This document shows positions 4,576-11,932 of a DNA stretch of 35,496 nt, piece by piece. The notes beneath the pieces are model-generated. The model worked only from the letters and a program-made list of their open reading frames with translations. It was not told where the DNA came from and did not search any database. Origin of the DNA: a bacterium (GTDB lineage: Bacteria > Planctomycetota > Planctomycetia > Planctomycetales > Planctomycetaceae); assembly GCA_016124895.1 (NCBI GenBank), contig WGMU01000175.1:1-35496 (forward strand). Reading direction: 5' to 3'. How positions within the stretch are numbered: the first letter of the stretch is position 1; every line of letters starts with the position of its first letter. Position numbers and translations under genes: made by a program.

Positions 4576-4601
4576 CCGATACGGAACTGGTCATTCACCC
4601 G
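4565..4601. terminator. Bidirectional terminator-like hairpin overlapping two stop codons
   Basis: CGGGTGAATGACC (4565-4577) and its exact complement (4589-4601) form a perfect 13-bp stem with an 11-base loop. The stop of the plus-strand gene (4573-4575) lies in the left arm and the htpG stop (4591-4593) in the right arm. Being symmetric it can act on both strands. It lacks a T-run, so intrinsic termination is not certain; transcript 3'-end protection is the alternative. Confidence 0.7.
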
Positions 4602-6492
4602 CAATCGGTGAGCGGCTTGACGCCAGTTCTTCCATGAAACCCATCATGCGGTCGGTCGCGTCGTGCGCGTCGGGGACGACACCTTCGATCATCAGGGCGT
4701 TGGTAAAGAGCTGCTGGCCGCAGGATTTGATGAATTCGTCGTGCTGCGAGTTCGCTGACAGAGCGGCCAGACGCTGAACCAGCGCGTGCTTCGGGTTGAT
4801 CTCGAAGATCCGCTTTGCCATCTGAAACTCATCACTCGCCTGGCTGAGCACCTTCTGCAGTTGAGCACTCATCGCGCCTTCCGGGTTGACGAGGCAGCAG
4901 GCACTGGCCGTCAGACGATTTGAGACACGCACATCTTCGACTTTCTCGCCGAGGCCCTCTTTCAGCAACTCGATGACGCGGTCGAGGCCAGCGGGTGTCT
5001 CGTCAGCGGCCTTTGACTCAGCGTCCTCTCCTTCAGCCGTGTCAGCCTTCGCTTCCGGCAGTTCAACCTCGGCTGAGTCGATCGAGACGATGTCCTTATC
5101 CGCGAACTTGCCCAGGTGGTTGAGCACGAACTCGTCGACGGGATCGATCAGATACAGCACTTCGAAGTTCCGCGACGCAAACGCTTCGAGATTCGGTGTG
5201 CGCTGGATCGTGCGGATGTCCGAGCCGGTGACGAAGTAAATCTGCGTCTGCTCTTCCGGCATCCGGCTGACGTAGTCGTCCAGCGACGTCAGGGCAGCGC
5301 GATCATCTCCGCACGAAGACCGGAACCGCAGCAGCTTGGCGATCGCGTCACGGTGCTCGAAATCGCTGGCGACGCCTTCCCGCAACGTCGTTCCGAACTG
5401 GCCGTAAAACTTCGCGTACTCTTCGGGTGTTTCGGCGAATTTCTCGATGTGCCCCAGCACGCGTTTGACGAGCACCTTGCGAATCTTGCGGAAGACTGTG
5501 TCGTCCTGCAGGGCCTGACGCGAAACATTCAGCGGCAGATCGGCGGAATCAACGAGCCCATAGATGAACCGCAGGTACTCGGGCAGAAGTTCGCGGCAGT
5601 TGTTCTGCACGAGGATCCGCTTGGCACACAGGTGCAGGCCGTGCTCGTCCTTGCCAAAGCCCATCAGCTCGAAGTTAGTCGGCGGGCAGAACAGGATCGC
5701 GTGAAACTGAAACGGCGAATCACTTGTCAGATGCAGATGCCACAGTGGTTCTTCGTGCGTGCGCTTCGACAGGTAACCGTAAAACGCCTTGTACTGCTCG
5801 TCGGTGACCTGCGACTTCGGCTCGACCCAGATCGGCTTCTGATCGTTGACGTGCTCGCCGTCGCAGCGAATCGGGTAAGGCACGAACGTCGAATACTCGG
5901 TGAGGATATGCTTCAGTCGGATCGGTCGCGTGAACTCGTCGAGATCTTCCTTCAGATGCAGTTTAATCTGCGTGCCGCGTTCGAGCCCCTCGGCCGCTTC
6001 GATCGAGAACCTGCCGGTTCCGTCCGACGTCCACTTCCAGCCGGTGTCTTCGGAGTAACTGCGGGTCAACACTTCAACCTGATCGGCGAGCATGAACGCC
6101 GAGTAAAACCCGACGCCGAACTGGCCAATCAGCGACACGTCGTTCTTCTGCGCGTCGCTGAGCTTCTTCAGGTAGTCGAGCGACCCGCTGTGCGCGATCG
6201 TGCCAAGATTCTGAATCAGCTCGTCATGCGTCATGCCGATCCCGTTGTCGCGGATGGTCAGCACGCGGTTCTCTTCGTCGGGTTCGATCCAGATGCCGAG
6301 TTCACTCTCACCCACGGAGGCACCCTGAGTCAGTACAACGTGCCGGTACTTATCGAGCGCGTCGGACGCGTTGGAGACCAGTTCACGGATCGCGATTTCA
6401 CGGTTCTGGTACAGCGAGTGCGAGAGCAGGTGCAGGAGCTGAGCAATCTCGGCCTGAAAGGTAAATTCCTGCGGAGCGGTTTCAGTCGTCAC
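4591..6492 (-). CDS. htpG: HtpG, Hsp90-family chaperone
   Basis: This 633-residue protein is a full-length bacterial Hsp90. The N-terminal GHKL ATPase domain shows FQAEIAQLLHLLSHSLY, the ATP-binding ELVSNASDALDKYR, the Asp of IRDNGIGMT, and GTIAHSG followed by IGQFGVGFYSAFM. The middle domain has the client and gamma-phosphate region with NVSRQALQDD. An acidic insert rich in Glu and Ala (EAKADTAEGEDAES) precedes the C-terminal dimerisation part, which ends in SPIAGE. The start is a GTG at 6492 with GAGAGGG 8 bases upstream. HtpG is a cytosolic ATP-dependent folding helper. It stands alone, divergent from the sensor kinase gene at 6871; no CIRCE element was seen. Confidence 0.97.
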   Translation of the reverse strand: MTTETAPQEFTFQAEIAQLLHLLSHSLYQNREIAIRELVSNASDALDKYRHVVLTQGASVGESELGIWIEPDEENRVLTIRDNGIGMTHDELIQNLGTIAHSGSLDYLKKLSDAQKNDVSLIGQFGVGFYSAFMLADQVEVLTRSYSEDTGWKWTSDGTGRFSIEAAEGLERGTQIKLHLKEDLDEFTRPIRLKHILTEYSTFVPYPIRCDGEHVNDQKPIWVEPKSQVTDEQYKAFYGYLSKRTHEEPLWHLHLTSDSPFQFHAILFCPPTNFELMGFGKDEHGLHLCAKRILVQNNCRELLPEYLRFIYGLVDSADLPLNVSRQALQDDTVFRKIRKVLVKRVLGHIEKFAETPEEYAKFYGQFGTTLREGVASDFEHRDAIAKLLRFRSSCGDDRAALTSLDDYVSRMPEEQTQIYFVTGSDIRTIQRTPNLEAFASRNFEVLYLIDPVDEFVLNHLGKFADKDIVSIDSAEVELPEAKADTAEGEDAESKAADETPAGLDRVIELLKEGLGEKVEDVRVSNRLTASACCLVNPEGAMSAQLQKVLSQASDEFQMAKRIFEINPKHALVQRLAALSANSQHDEFIKSCGQQLFTNALMIEGVVPDAHDATDRMMGFMEELASSRSPIAGE

Positions 6493-6870: not shown

Positions 6871-8013
6871 ATGCTGAATTCGATTACGTGGTTGTTTGAA
6901 ACAGATCTCTGGCCTCCCCGCTGGCGCTGCGGCGAATGGAGCGACTCGCTCGGCTGGATGCACATCATCTCGGACTGTTTCGTCTTCAGTGCGTACGTCG
7001 CCATCCCGCTGGTGCTCGCGTACTTCGTGCTCAAACGCAAAGACATGGTCTTCCCCCGGATTTTCTGGCTGTTCGCGGCCTTCATCTTTGCGTGCGGAAC
7101 GACTCACCTGGTCGAGGCGATCATCTTCTGGCAGCCGATCTATCGATTCGCCGGACTGCTGAAGTTTCTGACGGCTGTCGTTTCATGGCTGACCGTCGCC
7201 GCTCTGATCCGCATCGTGCCGCAGGCTCTGGAACTGCCCGGCCTGGCAACCGTGAATGAAAGGCTGGAATCCGAGGTGCAGGAGCGCCGGATTGCCCAGC
7301 AGAAGTACGAAGCGGCGAACGAGGCACTGCTCAGCCGCAACGACGAACTTCAGCAGTTCGTGTACACAGTTTCGCACGACCTGAAATCGCCGCTGGTGAC
7401 GGCACGCGGATTCATCGGAGTGCTGAAGGAAGACGTCGAAAGTCAGGACTTCGACCGCATTGCCAACAGCGTCAATCGCATCGAAGCGTCCACCGAGCGC
7501 ATGCAGGAACTGATTGGCGACCTGCTGCAGCTCAGCCGGGTCGGCAGCATTCGTTATGAGCCCGAATGGATCAATCCGGCCGGCCTGCTGATGCACCTGC
7601 GCGATTCTGTGTCGGAACCCGGGGCCGAGCACCAGATCGAAATCAAGATGCCGTTGCCGCAAGTCTTCGCCGACCGTGTGCGTCTGAATGAGGTCTTTCA
7701 GAATCTGCTCAGTAACGCGGTCAAGTATGGTTGCCCCACGCCGGACTCGCGCGTGCGCGTCTCAGCAACTGACGACAGCAACGGTGTCACGTTCCGCATC
7801 GCCGATTCGGGGCCGGGCATCGCTCCCGAACTGCAGGCCCGCGCATTTCTGCCGTTTGAGCGACTGCATTCGGGCGGCGACGGCACGGGCATCGGACTCT
7901 CAATCGCCAAACGCATCATCGAGAATCACGGTGGCCGGATCTGGATTGAATCGCCACCGGAAGGCGGCACGGTCTTTGTGTTTCACCTGCCGCATCCAGA
8001 GAAACGCGACTGA
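6871..8013 (+). CDS. Sensor histidine kinase with ETR1-type ethylene-binding membrane domain
   Basis: The 380-residue protein has three N-terminal membrane helices that match the plant ethylene receptor domain. Helix 1 holds ISDCFVFSAYVAIP, with Asp35, Tyr42 and Pro46; helix 2 holds FIFACGTTHLVEA, with Cys75 and His79; helix 3 has FLTAVVSWLTVAALIRIVP. Cys75 and His79 correspond to the copper ligands Cys65 and His69 of ETR1, and Asp35 to Asp25, a constant shift of 10. A coiled-coil linker (about 126-160) leads to the HisKA motif VSHDLKSP (His169) and a complete ATPase domain (NLLSNAVKYG, DSGPGIAP, GTGIGLSIAKR). No receiver or GAF domain is present and no response regulator is adjacent. The ligand may be ethylene or another small alkene; binding is inferred from the residues. 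Confidence 0.9.
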   Translation: MLNSITWLFETDLWPPRWRCGEWSDSLGWMHIISDCFVFSAYVAIPLVLAYFVLKRKDMVFPRIFWLFAAFIFACGTTHLVEAIIFWQPIYRFAGLLKFLTAVVSWLTVAALIRIVPQALELPGLATVNERLESEVQERRIAQQKYEAANEALLSRNDELQQFVYTVSHDLKSPLVTARGFIGVLKEDVESQDFDRIANSVNRIEASTERMQELIGDLLQLSRVGSIRYEPEWINPAGLLMHLRDSVSEPGAEHQIEIKMPLPQVFADRVRLNEVFQNLLSNAVKYGCPTPDSRVRVSATDDSNGVTFRIADSGPGIAPELQARAFLPFERLHSGGDGTGIGLSIAKRIIENHGGRIWIESPPEGGTVFVFHLPHPEKRD

Positions 8014-8279: not shown

Positions 8280-9734
8280 ATGACTGGGACCAACGCGATT
8301 GAAGTGCGGATGTTGATTAACGGCGAATGGCGAGACGCGGCAGGCGGCGGAACGCTCGACGTCATCAATCCGGCAACGGAAGAGACGGTGGCGAGCGTTT
8401 CGTTCGGAGGTCGCGCTGAAGCCCGTCTGGCTCTCGAAGCTGCCTCGGCGGCCATGCCCGCCTGGTCGAAGCGGACAGCCTGGGACCGGGCGAAGATCCT
8501 CAAACGCAGCGCCGACCTGATGCGTGACCGCTGCGAGTCGATCGCCCGCCTGTTGACGATGGAACAGGGTAAGCCACTGGCCGAGTCGCGCGGCGAAATC
8601 AACCAGGCGGCTGATACGTTCGAGTGGTTTGCCGAAGAGGCCAAGCGGGCGAATGGCGAAGTCATTCCGGAATCAGTTCCCGGTCGCAAGCACCTGACGG
8701 TCAAACATCCGGTCGGCGTGGTCGCGTCAATTTCGCCGTTCAACTTTCCGATCTCGCTGCAGAGCCGCAAGATCGCGCCAGCACTCGCGGCTGGCTGCAC
8801 CGTCGTCGCGCGGCCGGCGAGTCAGACACCGCTGAGTCTGCTGGCGATCTTCCACTGCCTGGAAGATGCGGGCATCCCGGCCGGCGTTGCCAACGTCGTT
8901 GTCGGTTCGCCGCGCGAGATGTCGGCTGAGTTTCTCGAAAACCCGGTCTGTCGCAAAATCAGCTTCACCGGGTCGACCGAAGTCGGCAAGCACCTGATGC
9001 GCGGCTGTGCCGACCAGGTCAAGCACATCAGCCTGGAACTTGGCGGACACGCACCGTTCATCGTCTTTCCGGATGCGGATCCGGAACTCGTGTCGCAGTT
9101 CGCCGTCACGGGCAAGTTTCGCAACAACGGTCAGGTCTGCATCTGCCCGACGCGGTTTTACGTGCATCGCGACGTGCAGAAGGAGTTTACGGAAGCCGTC
9201 GTCAAACGCACTCGTAGCCTGAAGCTCGGCAACGGACTCGACGACGGGGTCGAAATCGGCCCGATGTTTGAATCGTCGGCGATGCAGAAAACCGCCGAAC
9301 TCGTCAGCGACGCGCAGCAGCGCGGCGCAAAAGTCCTGACAGGCGGCGGGCGATCCGACAGGTTCGATCGCGGTTACTTCTTTGAACCGACTGTCCTGTC
9401 CGGTCTGACCGCCGACGCGCGGCTGATGGAAGAAGAGCCGTTTGCTCCAGTGATGCCGCTGCTTGATTTCGATCGGCTCGATGACGTCATCGCCGCTGCC
9501 AACAATACGAAGTACGGTCTGGCTGCGTACGTTTTCACAAACGATCTGACTGTCGCCTGGCGCATGGCGGAGGGACTTGAAGCCGGGATTATCGGCATCA
9601 ATGATCCCGTGCCAACCACCGTGCAGTGCCCGTTCGGCGGCATGAAGGAAAGCGGCCTGGGACGTGAGCTGGCTCACGAAGGGCTGGAAGCGTACCTCGA
9701 AACGAAATACGTCTCGATGAAACTGCGGGACTGA
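8280..9734 (+). CDS. NAD(P)-dependent aldehyde dehydrogenase, succinate-semialdehyde dehydrogenase type
   Basis: This 484-residue protein is a normal-length ALDH-superfamily enzyme of the GabD/SSADH type, which oxidises an aldehyde to the acid with NAD(P)+. The cofactor domain shows ISPFNFPISLQSRKIAPALA and the FTGSTEVGK turn. The catalytic glutamate is in LELGGHAP and the catalytic cysteine in NNGQVCICPTRF. EEPFAPVMP and the closing PFGGMKESGLGRE are typical. Conserved residues of substrate choice cannot be settled by eye, so succinate semialdehyde is the best guess, not a proof. The start at 8280 has AAGGAG about 9 bases upstream. The gene is followed after 17 bases by a molybdopterin oxidoreductase, so the two are probably co-transcribed. 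Confidence 0.88.
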   Translation: MTGTNAIEVRMLINGEWRDAAGGGTLDVINPATEETVASVSFGGRAEARLALEAASAAMPAWSKRTAWDRAKILKRSADLMRDRCESIARLLTMEQGKPLAESRGEINQAADTFEWFAEEAKRANGEVIPESVPGRKHLTVKHPVGVVASISPFNFPISLQSRKIAPALAAGCTVVARPASQTPLSLLAIFHCLEDAGIPAGVANVVVGSPREMSAEFLENPVCRKISFTGSTEVGKHLMRGCADQVKHISLELGGHAPFIVFPDADPELVSQFAVTGKFRNNGQVCICPTRFYVHRDVQKEFTEAVVKRTRSLKLGNGLDDGVEIGPMFESSAMQKTAELVSDAQQRGAKVLTGGGRSDRFDRGYFFEPTVLSGLTADARLMEEEPFAPVMPLLDFDRLDDVIAAANNTKYGLAAYVFTNDLTVAWRMAEGLEAGIIGINDPVPTTVQCPFGGMKESGLGRELAHEGLEAYLETKYVSMKLRD

Positions 9735-9751
9735 CAGGGACGGAATCGGCG

Positions 9752-11932
9752 ATGCGACAACCGAAGAGTGGCGGCGGCTGGAAAGCGATTGGCTATACGC
9801 TGCGCATGGCAAACCGGGCTGGCTGGCTGCGACTGTGGCGCGCGATGCGCAGCAAAAACGCCTGCAAGACCTGCGCTCTGGGCATGGGTGGCCAGATGGG
9901 CGGCATGGTCAACGAAGGTGGATACTTCCCTGAAGTCTGCAAGAAGTCGTTTCAGGCGATGGTCTCGGACATGCAGGACGGGATTACGCCCGGTTTTTTC
10001 CAGCGGTACGGCTTCAACGAACTGCGAGCGATGACACCGCGGCAGCTCGAACACAGCGGCCGGCTGGTCATGCCGCTCTACGCGGGCCCGGATGATTCGC
10101 ACTATCGCCCGATTGAATGGGACGAGGCACTCGACCTGCTGTCGAAGCGGTTGCAGGACGCCGGCCCGACGCGCAGCTTTTTTTACGCGAGCGGTCGATC
10201 GTCCAATGAAGCCGGATTTCTGCTGCAGCTCTTCGCGCGGCTGTTCGGCACAAACTATGTCAACAACTGTTCGTACTACTGTCATCAGGCCAGCGGTACC
10301 GGACTGGCCGCGAGCATCGGGACCGGCACTGGGACGATCAAACTCGAAGACCTGCACCACGCGGATCTTTACATTCTGATCGGCGCCAACCCGGCCTCGA
10401 ATCACCCGCGTCTGCTGCGCTCGCTGATGGAACTGCGACGACGCGGTGGCAAAGTCATCGTCATCAACCCGGTGAAGGAACTCGGACTTGTCAACTTTCG
10501 AGTCCCCAGCGACGTGCGCAGCCTGCTGTTCGGTTCTCCGATCGCCAGCCAGTACGTGCAGCCACACATTGGAGGTGACATCGCTCTGCTGACTGGCGTC
10601 GCAAAGTATGTGCTCGACAACGGCGGAGAGAACCACGACTTCATCACCAGTCGCACCGAAGACTTCGACGCATTTCGTGCTCAGGTCGAAGCAACGAGCT
10701 GGCAGCAGATTGAGCGCGACTCCGGTGTGTCGCGGGCTCAGATCGAACAGATCGGCGAGACGTATCTCAACGCCGGGAACGCCGTCATCGGCTGGGCGAT
10801 GGGCATCACGCATCACGTTCACGGAACGGACAATGTGAAGATGGTCGCCAACGTCGCCCTGCTCCGCGGCATGGTCGGCCGGCCGGCCGCCGGACTGATG
10901 CCGATCCGCGGTCACAGCAACGTGCAGGGCGTCGGCTCGGTCGGCGTCACTCCCGTCCTGAAGCAGGCGCTGCTGAAGCGGTTTGAAGAGCGGCTCGGGA
11001 TCGAGGCTCCGAAGTCCCCCGGCTACGACACGATGGCCTGTATGGAAGCCGCCGATCGTGGCGAGATGGACGTTGCGCTTTGTCTCGGCGGAAACCTGTA
11101 TGGCAGCAATCCGGACGCGACCTTCGCCCAGCAGGCTCTGCAGAAGATTGGTCTGGTGACTTACCTGTCAACAACGCTGAACACCGGGCACGCCTGGGGT
11201 CGTGGCAAAGAGACGCTCGTTCTGCCCGTTCTGCCACGCGACGAAGAGCCTCAGCCAACGACGCAGGAGTCGATGTTCAGCTTCGTGCGGCTCAGCGACG
11301 GCGGCCGACTCCGCTACTCAGGCCCGCGCAGCGAGGTGTCTATACTGACCGCACTTGGCCAGCGAGTGCTCAGCCAGCAGACGGCCATCGACTGGAAGCA
11401 GCTCGAAAGTCACGACGCGATTCGGCAGCTCATCGCCGAGATGATTCCCGGCTTCGAGCCCATCGCGACAATCGGCCAGACGAAGAAGGAATTTCACATC
11501 GCGGGACGGCACCCGCAGAACGGCCAGTTCACTACCGAATCCGGCAAGGCGAGGTTCCACGCGATCGATCTGCCGGATCTCGCGCCGGTATCCGGCAGTG
11601 AACTGCGGCTGATGACTGTCCGCAGCGAAGGCCAGTTCAACACGGTCGTCTACGAGGAAGAGGACCTGTACCGCGGTCAGGAACGCCGCGACATCATCCT
11701 GTTGAATCCGTCCGACATGCAGCGGCTGGGCCTGAAGGCCGATCAGAAAGTCCGCATCCGCAGCGCTGCTGGCGAGATGCGCTATCAGCTCGCCCGCCCC
11801 TTCGACGTCCGCTCCGGCAACGCCCTGATGTACTGCCCGGAAGCCAACGTCCTGATCCCGCATCAGGTTGACCCGAAATCAAGAACTCCCGGCTTCAAGA
11901 ACATCAGGATCACAGTCGCTCCTGAAGAGTGA
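9752..11932 (+). CDS. FdhF/YdeP-like molybdopterin oxidoreductase
   Basis: The 726-residue protein belongs to the DMSO-reductase superfamily of molybdopterin-guanine-dinucleotide enzymes, in the formate-dehydrogenase-like YdeP branch. The N-terminus has ACKTCALGMGGQMGG, with fewer cysteines than needed for the usual 4Fe-4S motif of FdhF, as is typical of this branch. Cofactor-binding stretches include FFYASGRSSNEAGFLLQLFAR, LIGANPASNHPRL, GLMPIRGHSNVQG and LGGNLYGSNPD. The C-terminal molybdopterin-dinucleotide domain has FNTVVYEEEDLYRG and ILLNPSDMQRLGL. There is no Tat signal, so it is cytosolic. Substrate is unknown; members have been linked to acid resistance. It follows the aldehyde dehydrogenase by 17 bases and precedes the glycosyltransferase gene by 18. 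Confidence 0.88.
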   Translation: MRQPKSGGGWKAIGYTLRMANRAGWLRLWRAMRSKNACKTCALGMGGQMGGMVNEGGYFPEVCKKSFQAMVSDMQDGITPGFFQRYGFNELRAMTPRQLEHSGRLVMPLYAGPDDSHYRPIEWDEALDLLSKRLQDAGPTRSFFYASGRSSNEAGFLLQLFARLFGTNYVNNCSYYCHQASGTGLAASIGTGTGTIKLEDLHHADLYILIGANPASNHPRLLRSLMELRRRGGKVIVINPVKELGLVNFRVPSDVRSLLFGSPIASQYVQPHIGGDIALLTGVAKYVLDNGGENHDFITSRTEDFDAFRAQVEATSWQQIERDSGVSRAQIEQIGETYLNAGNAVIGWAMGITHHVHGTDNVKMVANVALLRGMVGRPAAGLMPIRGHSNVQGVGSVGVTPVLKQALLKRFEERLGIEAPKSPGYDTMACMEAADRGEMDVALCLGGNLYGSNPDATFAQQALQKIGLVTYLSTTLNTGHAWGRGKETLVLPVLPRDEEPQPTTQESMFSFVRLSDGGRLRYSGPRSEVSILTALGQRVLSQQTAIDWKQLESHDAIRQLIAEMIPGFEPIATIGQTKKEFHIAGRHPQNGQFTTESGKARFHAIDLPDLAPVSGSELRLMTVRSEGQFNTVVYEEEDLYRGQERRDIILLNPSDMQRLGLKADQKVRIRSAAGEMRYQLARPFDVRSGNALMYCPEANVLIPHQVDPKSRTPGFKNIRITVAPEE

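Follow-up and report, generated by a model that had tools for sequence, protein, structure and literature searches.

A minimal planctomycete histidine kinase with an ethylene-receptor-type membrane domain

Introduction

Could a planctomycete sense ethylene? The question is raised by a histidine kinase gene in a planctomycete contig (WGMU01000175.1), which encodes a membrane domain resembling the ethylene-binding domain of plant ETR1. Direct ethylene binding has been tied to a specific receptor and response in few microbes; passages of PMC11819568 on this subject name Synechocystis, Rhizophagus and now Azospirillum. The same source mentions putative receptors in other bacterial phyla, and passages of PMC7700396 and PMC5285503 name proteobacteria, cyanobacteria and early fungi. 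The main texts of the latter two papers contain no word beginning with "planctomyc". Searches of the open-access literature, judged by title and opening of the abstract, turned up plant or rhizosphere work but, among the papers listed, none on a planctomycete ethylene receptor; other reviews may list some.

Results

Architecture of the kinase

The gene lies at positions 6871..8013 on the plus strand of the window, by which we mean the whole 35,496-nucleotide stretch of DNA that was analysed. This is exactly the open reading frame proposed in a first-pass annotation made from the DNA letters. By reading-frame and Pfam analysis it codes, from an ATG start, for a sensor histidine kinase of 380 aa. 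GC by codon position (0.63/0.41/0.76) resembles that of three adjoining genes. The parts of the protein follow in the order ETR1_N, predicted coiled coil, HisKA and HATPase_c.

The ethylene-binding profile PF25487 (ETR1_N) matched residues 27-122 (6949..7236, plus strand) with an E value of 7.6e-36 and 122.7 bits, far over the curated cut-off of 27. The E value rules out chance resemblance, and we dropped that reading. A profile search of the membrane domain had been named as a check in the first-pass annotation, and the match upholds the assignment, with Cys and His kept. Three hydropathy peaks coincide with three confident helices in an AlphaFold2 model, all on the plus strand: helix 1 spans residues 25-55 (6943..7035) and carries D35, Y42, I45 and P46, helix 2 spans residues 62-85 (7054..7125) and carries I72, C75 and H79, and helix 3 spans residues 91-121 (7141..7233) and carries K98 and the motif TAVVS.

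Seven residues of ETR1 are needed for ethylene binding, according to passages in PMC11819568, PMC6586836 and PMC6682694. All seven are present in the window domain as D35, Y42, I45, P46, I72, C75 and H79. K98 corresponds to ETR1 K91, so that D35 and K98, the helix-1/helix-3 pair, are both present. The original source for the seven residues is reportedly Wang 2006. We take the ETR1 residues to be D25, Y32, I35, P36, I62, C65 and H69, in part from the papers' passages and the first-pass annotation; the ETR1 sequence in our alignments is numbered consistently with the residues cited in those passages. The predicted matches at D35, Y42, P46, C75 and H79 thus stand, with I45, I72 and K98 in addition, and TAVVS is common to both third helices. 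The claim of a gapless alignment at the key sites holds for the residues themselves but not for the spacing: the offset between the two proteins is 10 residues in helices 1 and 2 and 7 at helix 3 (K98 = K91, S105 = S98), which opens a gap of three residues in the alignment between the second and third helices. C75 and H79 are the expected Cu(I) ligands. Over residues 27-122, the window domain is identical to ETR1 at 38/96 positions, to the Azospirillum brasilense domain at 47/96 (49%) and to the Lacipirellula domain at 65/96.

Residues 1-26 (6871..6948, plus strand) form an N-terminal stretch with the motif PRWxCGxW, identified in an alignment of 18 kinases. P15, R17, W18, C20, G21 and W23 are invariant in 18/18 of these minimal kinases. 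Cys20 is a candidate, by analogy, for an inter-subunit disulfide of the kind that plant receptors form through an N-terminal Cys, and a passage of PMC6682694 ascribes one N-terminal Cys to cyanobacterial receptors as well. A signature of roughly FDTSxFPPRWxCGxW recurs ahead of helix 1 in many of the proteins from loci L047-L126.

The kinase part is complete, as the first-pass annotation had stated. HisKA covers residues 160-225 (7348..7545, plus strand; Pfam and alignment), with His169 as phospho-acceptor, and HATPase_c covers residues 268-376 (7672..7998, plus strand; Pfam). Two further ATPase-type Pfam models also match. The His, N, G1 and G2 boxes are all represented (His169, N278/N282, D312/G314/G316 and G340/G342). 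A Pfam scan of the 380 aa gave no match to PAS, GAF or receiver domains, and because a receiver is absent we dropped the idea of a hybrid kinase. The AlphaFold2 model, built with 18 aligned kinases as input (mean pLDDT 86.8, pTM 0.60), has a long helix at residues 125-170 followed by an ordinary kinase part. In a structure search with this model, the best 50 of 491 PDB matches were kinase or kinase-like chains. Among these 50, 8g3a_D (BceAB-S) aligned over 351 columns and may reach the membrane part, and the remaining listed matches spanned about the length of the kinase. When residues 1-130 were searched by sequence against the PDB, the single match was a chance one to a synthetic protein (E 0.76), and no relative emerged. 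In the window protein, then, a predicted coiled coil links three helices of the ethylene-binding family, with the residues required in ETR1, to a full HisKA/HATPase kinase.

Comparison with known receptors

A close experimental parallel is AzoEtr1 from A. brasilense. Passages of PMC11819568 report that AzoEtr1(1-130) expressed in yeast shows saturable 14C-ethylene binding. AzoEtr1 and the window protein share the residue numbers D35, C75, H79 and K98 and the 47 identical domain positions given above, and in both the domain drives a HisKA/HATPase kinase. AzoEtr1 differs in its PAS domain and in the response regulator gene that overlaps its own, and its ethylene-binding domain falls in another tree branch. 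The sequence that we compared comes from strain 2020WEIHUA_K (locus L045), whereas the published receptor is from strain Sp7; we took L045 as the AzoEtr1 orthologue because it has the same D35/C75/H79/K98 numbers and an overlapping response regulator gene.

The cyanobacterial receptors SynEtr1 (Synechocystis) and GeiEtr1/2 (Geitlerinema), as described in passages of PMC6682694, resemble the window protein in placing the domain on a histidine kinase with a single N-terminal Cys, but carry GAF, PAS or phytochrome-like parts for which the window protein has no match. Plant ETR1/ERS1 share the seven residues, the Lys91 equivalent and TAVVS in helix 3. The window protein differs from them in its 38/96 identity, the 3-residue gap, the lack of a GAF match and its position outside the ETR1 branch, and we dropped a plant-type receptor reading on the last two grounds. 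The same architecture occurs within the phylum in a kinase of "Planctomycetes bacterium Pan216" (L054, CP036279.1), which has 389 aa and is 41% identical over 389 columns. The Pan216 kinase gene has an overlapping receiver-domain gene directly downstream, and the window gene does not.

Distribution of the domain

Profile searches found one ethylene-binding domain in the window's own genome. The domain was present in 19/40 relatives, in 42/392 genomes drawn from the phylum Planctomycetota and in 58/291 genomes drawn from the Bacteroidota order to which a Pleomorphovibrio genome belongs, and in 0/14 control genomes. The domain sequences taken from these searches leave out a few short or split matches: one among the relatives (G018:C333), two in the phylum draw (G167:C92) and five in the Bacteroidota order scan (G433, G425:C64, G556:C1:4113394 and two in G618:C4). 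The one genome of the same genus among the relatives (84% complete) lacks the domain, as do many members of the family.

These three profile-found sets carry no selection bias for Cys and His. The 70 other planctomycete domains found in this way all have both Cys and His; 56 have all seven residues, at least one being missing in the other 14, and 65 have both the Asp and the Lys. A scan of named genomes, in which open reading frame starts were assigned heuristically, gave at least 589 confirmed stretches. We analysed 80 of these loci: 35 from Bacteroidota, 30 from Planctomycetota, 10 from Verrucomicrobiota, 2 from Hydrogenedentota, and one each from Acidobacteriota, Cyanobacteriota and an unplaced source. 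Because the 80 loci were chosen by a pattern that demands Cys and His, their Cys/His count is uninformative. The domain also occurs on 18 plasmid records, three of them typed as conjugative. The plasmid kinases include L046 and L151, both on plasmids typed as conjugative, and L152, a short kinase on a Blastomonas phycosphere plasmid that adjoins two response regulator genes on the opposite strand.

The first-pass annotation had called a planctomycete receptor less described than the cyanobacterial ones. Our literature search agrees in having found no such report, but the domain itself is common in planctomycetes. Since it is also present in related phyla, the window gene is less special than that annotation suggested. 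The domain family is already known, and the window protein is an added member in a branch worth a binding assay.

Signal output and a proposed partner regulator

We propose that the window protein is a minimal kinase of the ethylene-receptor type. It would act as a dimer, each subunit holding one Cu(I) through Cys75 and His79 of helix 2, and ethylene would bind to this copper. Helices 1 and 3 would be bridged by a salt bridge from Asp35 to Lys98, which would couple binding to helix movement, and this movement in turn would alter autophosphorylation of His169. The phosphate would then pass to an unlinked Rcp1-like single-domain regulator, most likely one encoded on contig C164 of the same genome (L143:1776-2237, minus strand). 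We consider this explanation, taken as a whole, probable, although the lack of an adjacent regulator, the patchy presence of the gene in the family and the 14 of 70 other planctomycete domains that miss at least one of the seven residues count against it.

The genes beside the kinase offer no regulator. Upstream and divergent lies a gene for an Hsp90 family (HtpG-like) protein (4591..6492, minus strand), which is outside the system, and downstream lies one for an aldehyde dehydrogenase (8280..9734, plus strand), which is not a response regulator; both were assigned by protein scan. A molybdopterin oxidoreductase gene begins on the same strand 17 bases past the end of the aldehyde dehydrogenase gene, and the two may form an operon at window positions 8280-11932. 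We dropped a functional link between the kinase and the HtpG-like, aldehyde dehydrogenase or molybdopterin oxidoreductase neighbours. None of nine nearby proteins scanned has a receiver domain, and the window kinase is therefore an orphan. Orphan kinases are common, and a missing adjacent regulator leaves membership in a two-component system possible. Among the 80 loci, 11 of 21 complete minimal kinases (341-430 aa) are followed within 450 bp by the start of a same-strand receiver; three of the 11 had also served as seeds for the receiver model. Across the full set of 80 loci, a receiver lies in the same protein in 20, adjacent in 35 (both in 2) and in neither place in 27, with 5 reading frames running off the locus end.

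We looked for a partner elsewhere in the genome. The closest kinase, a paralogue on C164, is 46% identical to the window kinase over 242 aa. Around the phospho-acceptor His the two are identical at 53/90 positions, including the stretch QQFVYTVSHDLKSPLVT. A receiver gene directly beside the C164 kinase encodes the second-best match to the Pan216 regulator. Because the C164 kinase is the closest and adjoins a Pan216-like regulator, we propose, from sequence comparison, that the C164 regulator is the partner of the window kinase. Against this choice, the Pan216 regulator finds its best match on C32, and a further regulator of this type is on C83; we call these proteins Rcp1-like. The presence of such regulators on C32 and C83 and the orphan state of the window gene would agree with a different output, in which the kinase binds ethylene but engages in crosstalk with the C32 or C83 regulator or serves the C164 pair as a phosphatase. 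The likeness of the C164 and window kinases near the His argues against this reading, as the kinase beside the C32 regulator is 31% identical to the window kinase over 228 aa. We regard a different output as somewhat unlikely; it concerns output alone and is compatible with the input half of our preferred explanation.

Two further gene families were scored. ACC deaminase gave one match below the curated cut-off, and since matches of the same kind occur in 6/14 control genomes it was not counted. Copper-ATPases gave two unbroken matches above the cut-off and a third that was split in two, and the presence of such genes in 13/14 controls means that they do not discriminate.

Phylogeny and the Asp-Lys pair

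We placed the window domain in a careful tree of 90 rows, from which L001 (the locus of the window itself), L019, L262 and L263 were omitted. A 16-row branch with support 100/90 contains ETR1, three cyanobacterial, six proteobacterial (including A. brasilense) and six planctomycete domains. The window protein lies outside this branch, nearest to Lacipirellula limnantheis, in a tree that has few columns, a bootstrap that is not settled and ETR1 as a long branch. A quick tree of 98 rows has the same split, and in it the domain L090 from a cyanobacterial metagenome-assembled genome falls with Bacteroidota. The Synechocystis and Geitlerinema receptors were absent from both trees, where cyanobacteria were represented by three other domains. 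The window domain does not group with the plant and cyanobacterial domains, a comparison that the first-pass annotation had proposed. Accordingly, the domains in the tree with tested ethylene binding are not its nearest kin, and planctomycetes hold domains of both types. A search of the open-access literature for ethylene-binding data on the window protein's branch found none. Given the position outside the ETR1, cyanobacterial and proteobacterial branch, we infer ethylene as the ligand from the residues of the domain, and binding by the window protein is a reasonable hypothesis.

We compared the helix-1 acid and helix-3 base across the family. In 239 rows, representing 226 distinct domains, 204 have both, 15 have neither, 5 have the acid only and 2 have the base only. 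All 15 distinct domains with neither come from Bacteroidota (L086/L218, L094, L095, L100/L156, L105/L159, L183, L197, L202, L215, L217, L222 and L224-L227), with His kept in 15/15 and Cys in 14/15. The Bacteroidota order scan yielded 79 domains. In 65 of them position 35 is an acid and position 98 a base, 1 has the acid only, and the remaining 13, with neither, have S, N or once L at position 35, and L at 98. Thus the helix-1 acid (ETR1 D25) and the helix-3 base (K91) tend to be lost together in Bacteroidota. Joint loss is not a strict rule, to judge from the two base-only rows, both from planctomycetes: L262, with an odd helix-1 region, and L263, which matches weakly and is divergent. The acid-only domain L147 from a cyanobacterial plasmid indicates that the base alone can be replaced. 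In a tree of 151 rows built without the acid and base columns, which left out the nine divergent domains L228-L236 (all acid-bearing) as well as L262 and L263, the acid changed four times and the base four times, and the state with neither arose at least twice on well-supported branches. A sign test on independent pairs had 2 pairs only (p 0.5) and proves nothing alone. According to the review PMC13012798, affinity falls about 100-fold when Asn replaces the Asp, variants occur naturally, and models place the Asp in a salt bridge with a Lys. Joint loss in nature fits this salt-bridge model. Nine Bacteroidota relatives (L227-L230 and L232-L236), eight of them divergent, lack the copper-ligand Cys, one of them lacking the His as well, and these perhaps differ in function.

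The tree and the Bacteroidota variants bear on whether the window domain keeps its Cu(I) site and senses another signal, such as copper status, oxygen, CO or another small alkene. A branch outside plants and cyanobacteria may own a different ligand, and the window domain lies in such a position. Some Bacteroidota relatives have lost the Asp/Lys pair yet retain Cys and His, so a likely copper site without the standard ethylene site exists in nature. The window domain, on the other hand, keeps all seven residues. Three of these, I45, P46 and I72, are not expected copper ligands, and there is no obvious reason why a plain copper sensor should require them. We consider a ligand other than ethylene unlikely.

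Discussion

The reading that the gene is a decaying orphan receptor without function can draw on the lack of an adjacent regulator and on patchy presence in the family, but is very improbable given an open frame, host-like codon-position GC and intact sensor and kinase motifs. Our preferred explanation is a copper-held ethylene signal passed by a minimal receptor kinase to the C164 regulator.

At 380 aa, and without PAS, GAF or receiver domains, the window protein is a simple system in which to study how the binding of ethylene could move a kinase. Either outcome of a binding assay would be useful. If the protein does not bind ethylene, the seven-residue rule fails to predict ethylene binding, which would be as informative as a positive result. 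If it does, ethylene sensing extends to phyla beyond those tested. We tentatively suggest a broader reading, in which the window protein belongs to a large branch of ethylene-binding domains from Planctomycetota, Verrucomicrobiota, Bacteroidota and others. Binding by the window protein could then mean that ethylene sensing is general in free-living heterotrophs and untied from photosynthesis and plants, and joint loss of the acid and base may mark members with a changed affinity or ligand.
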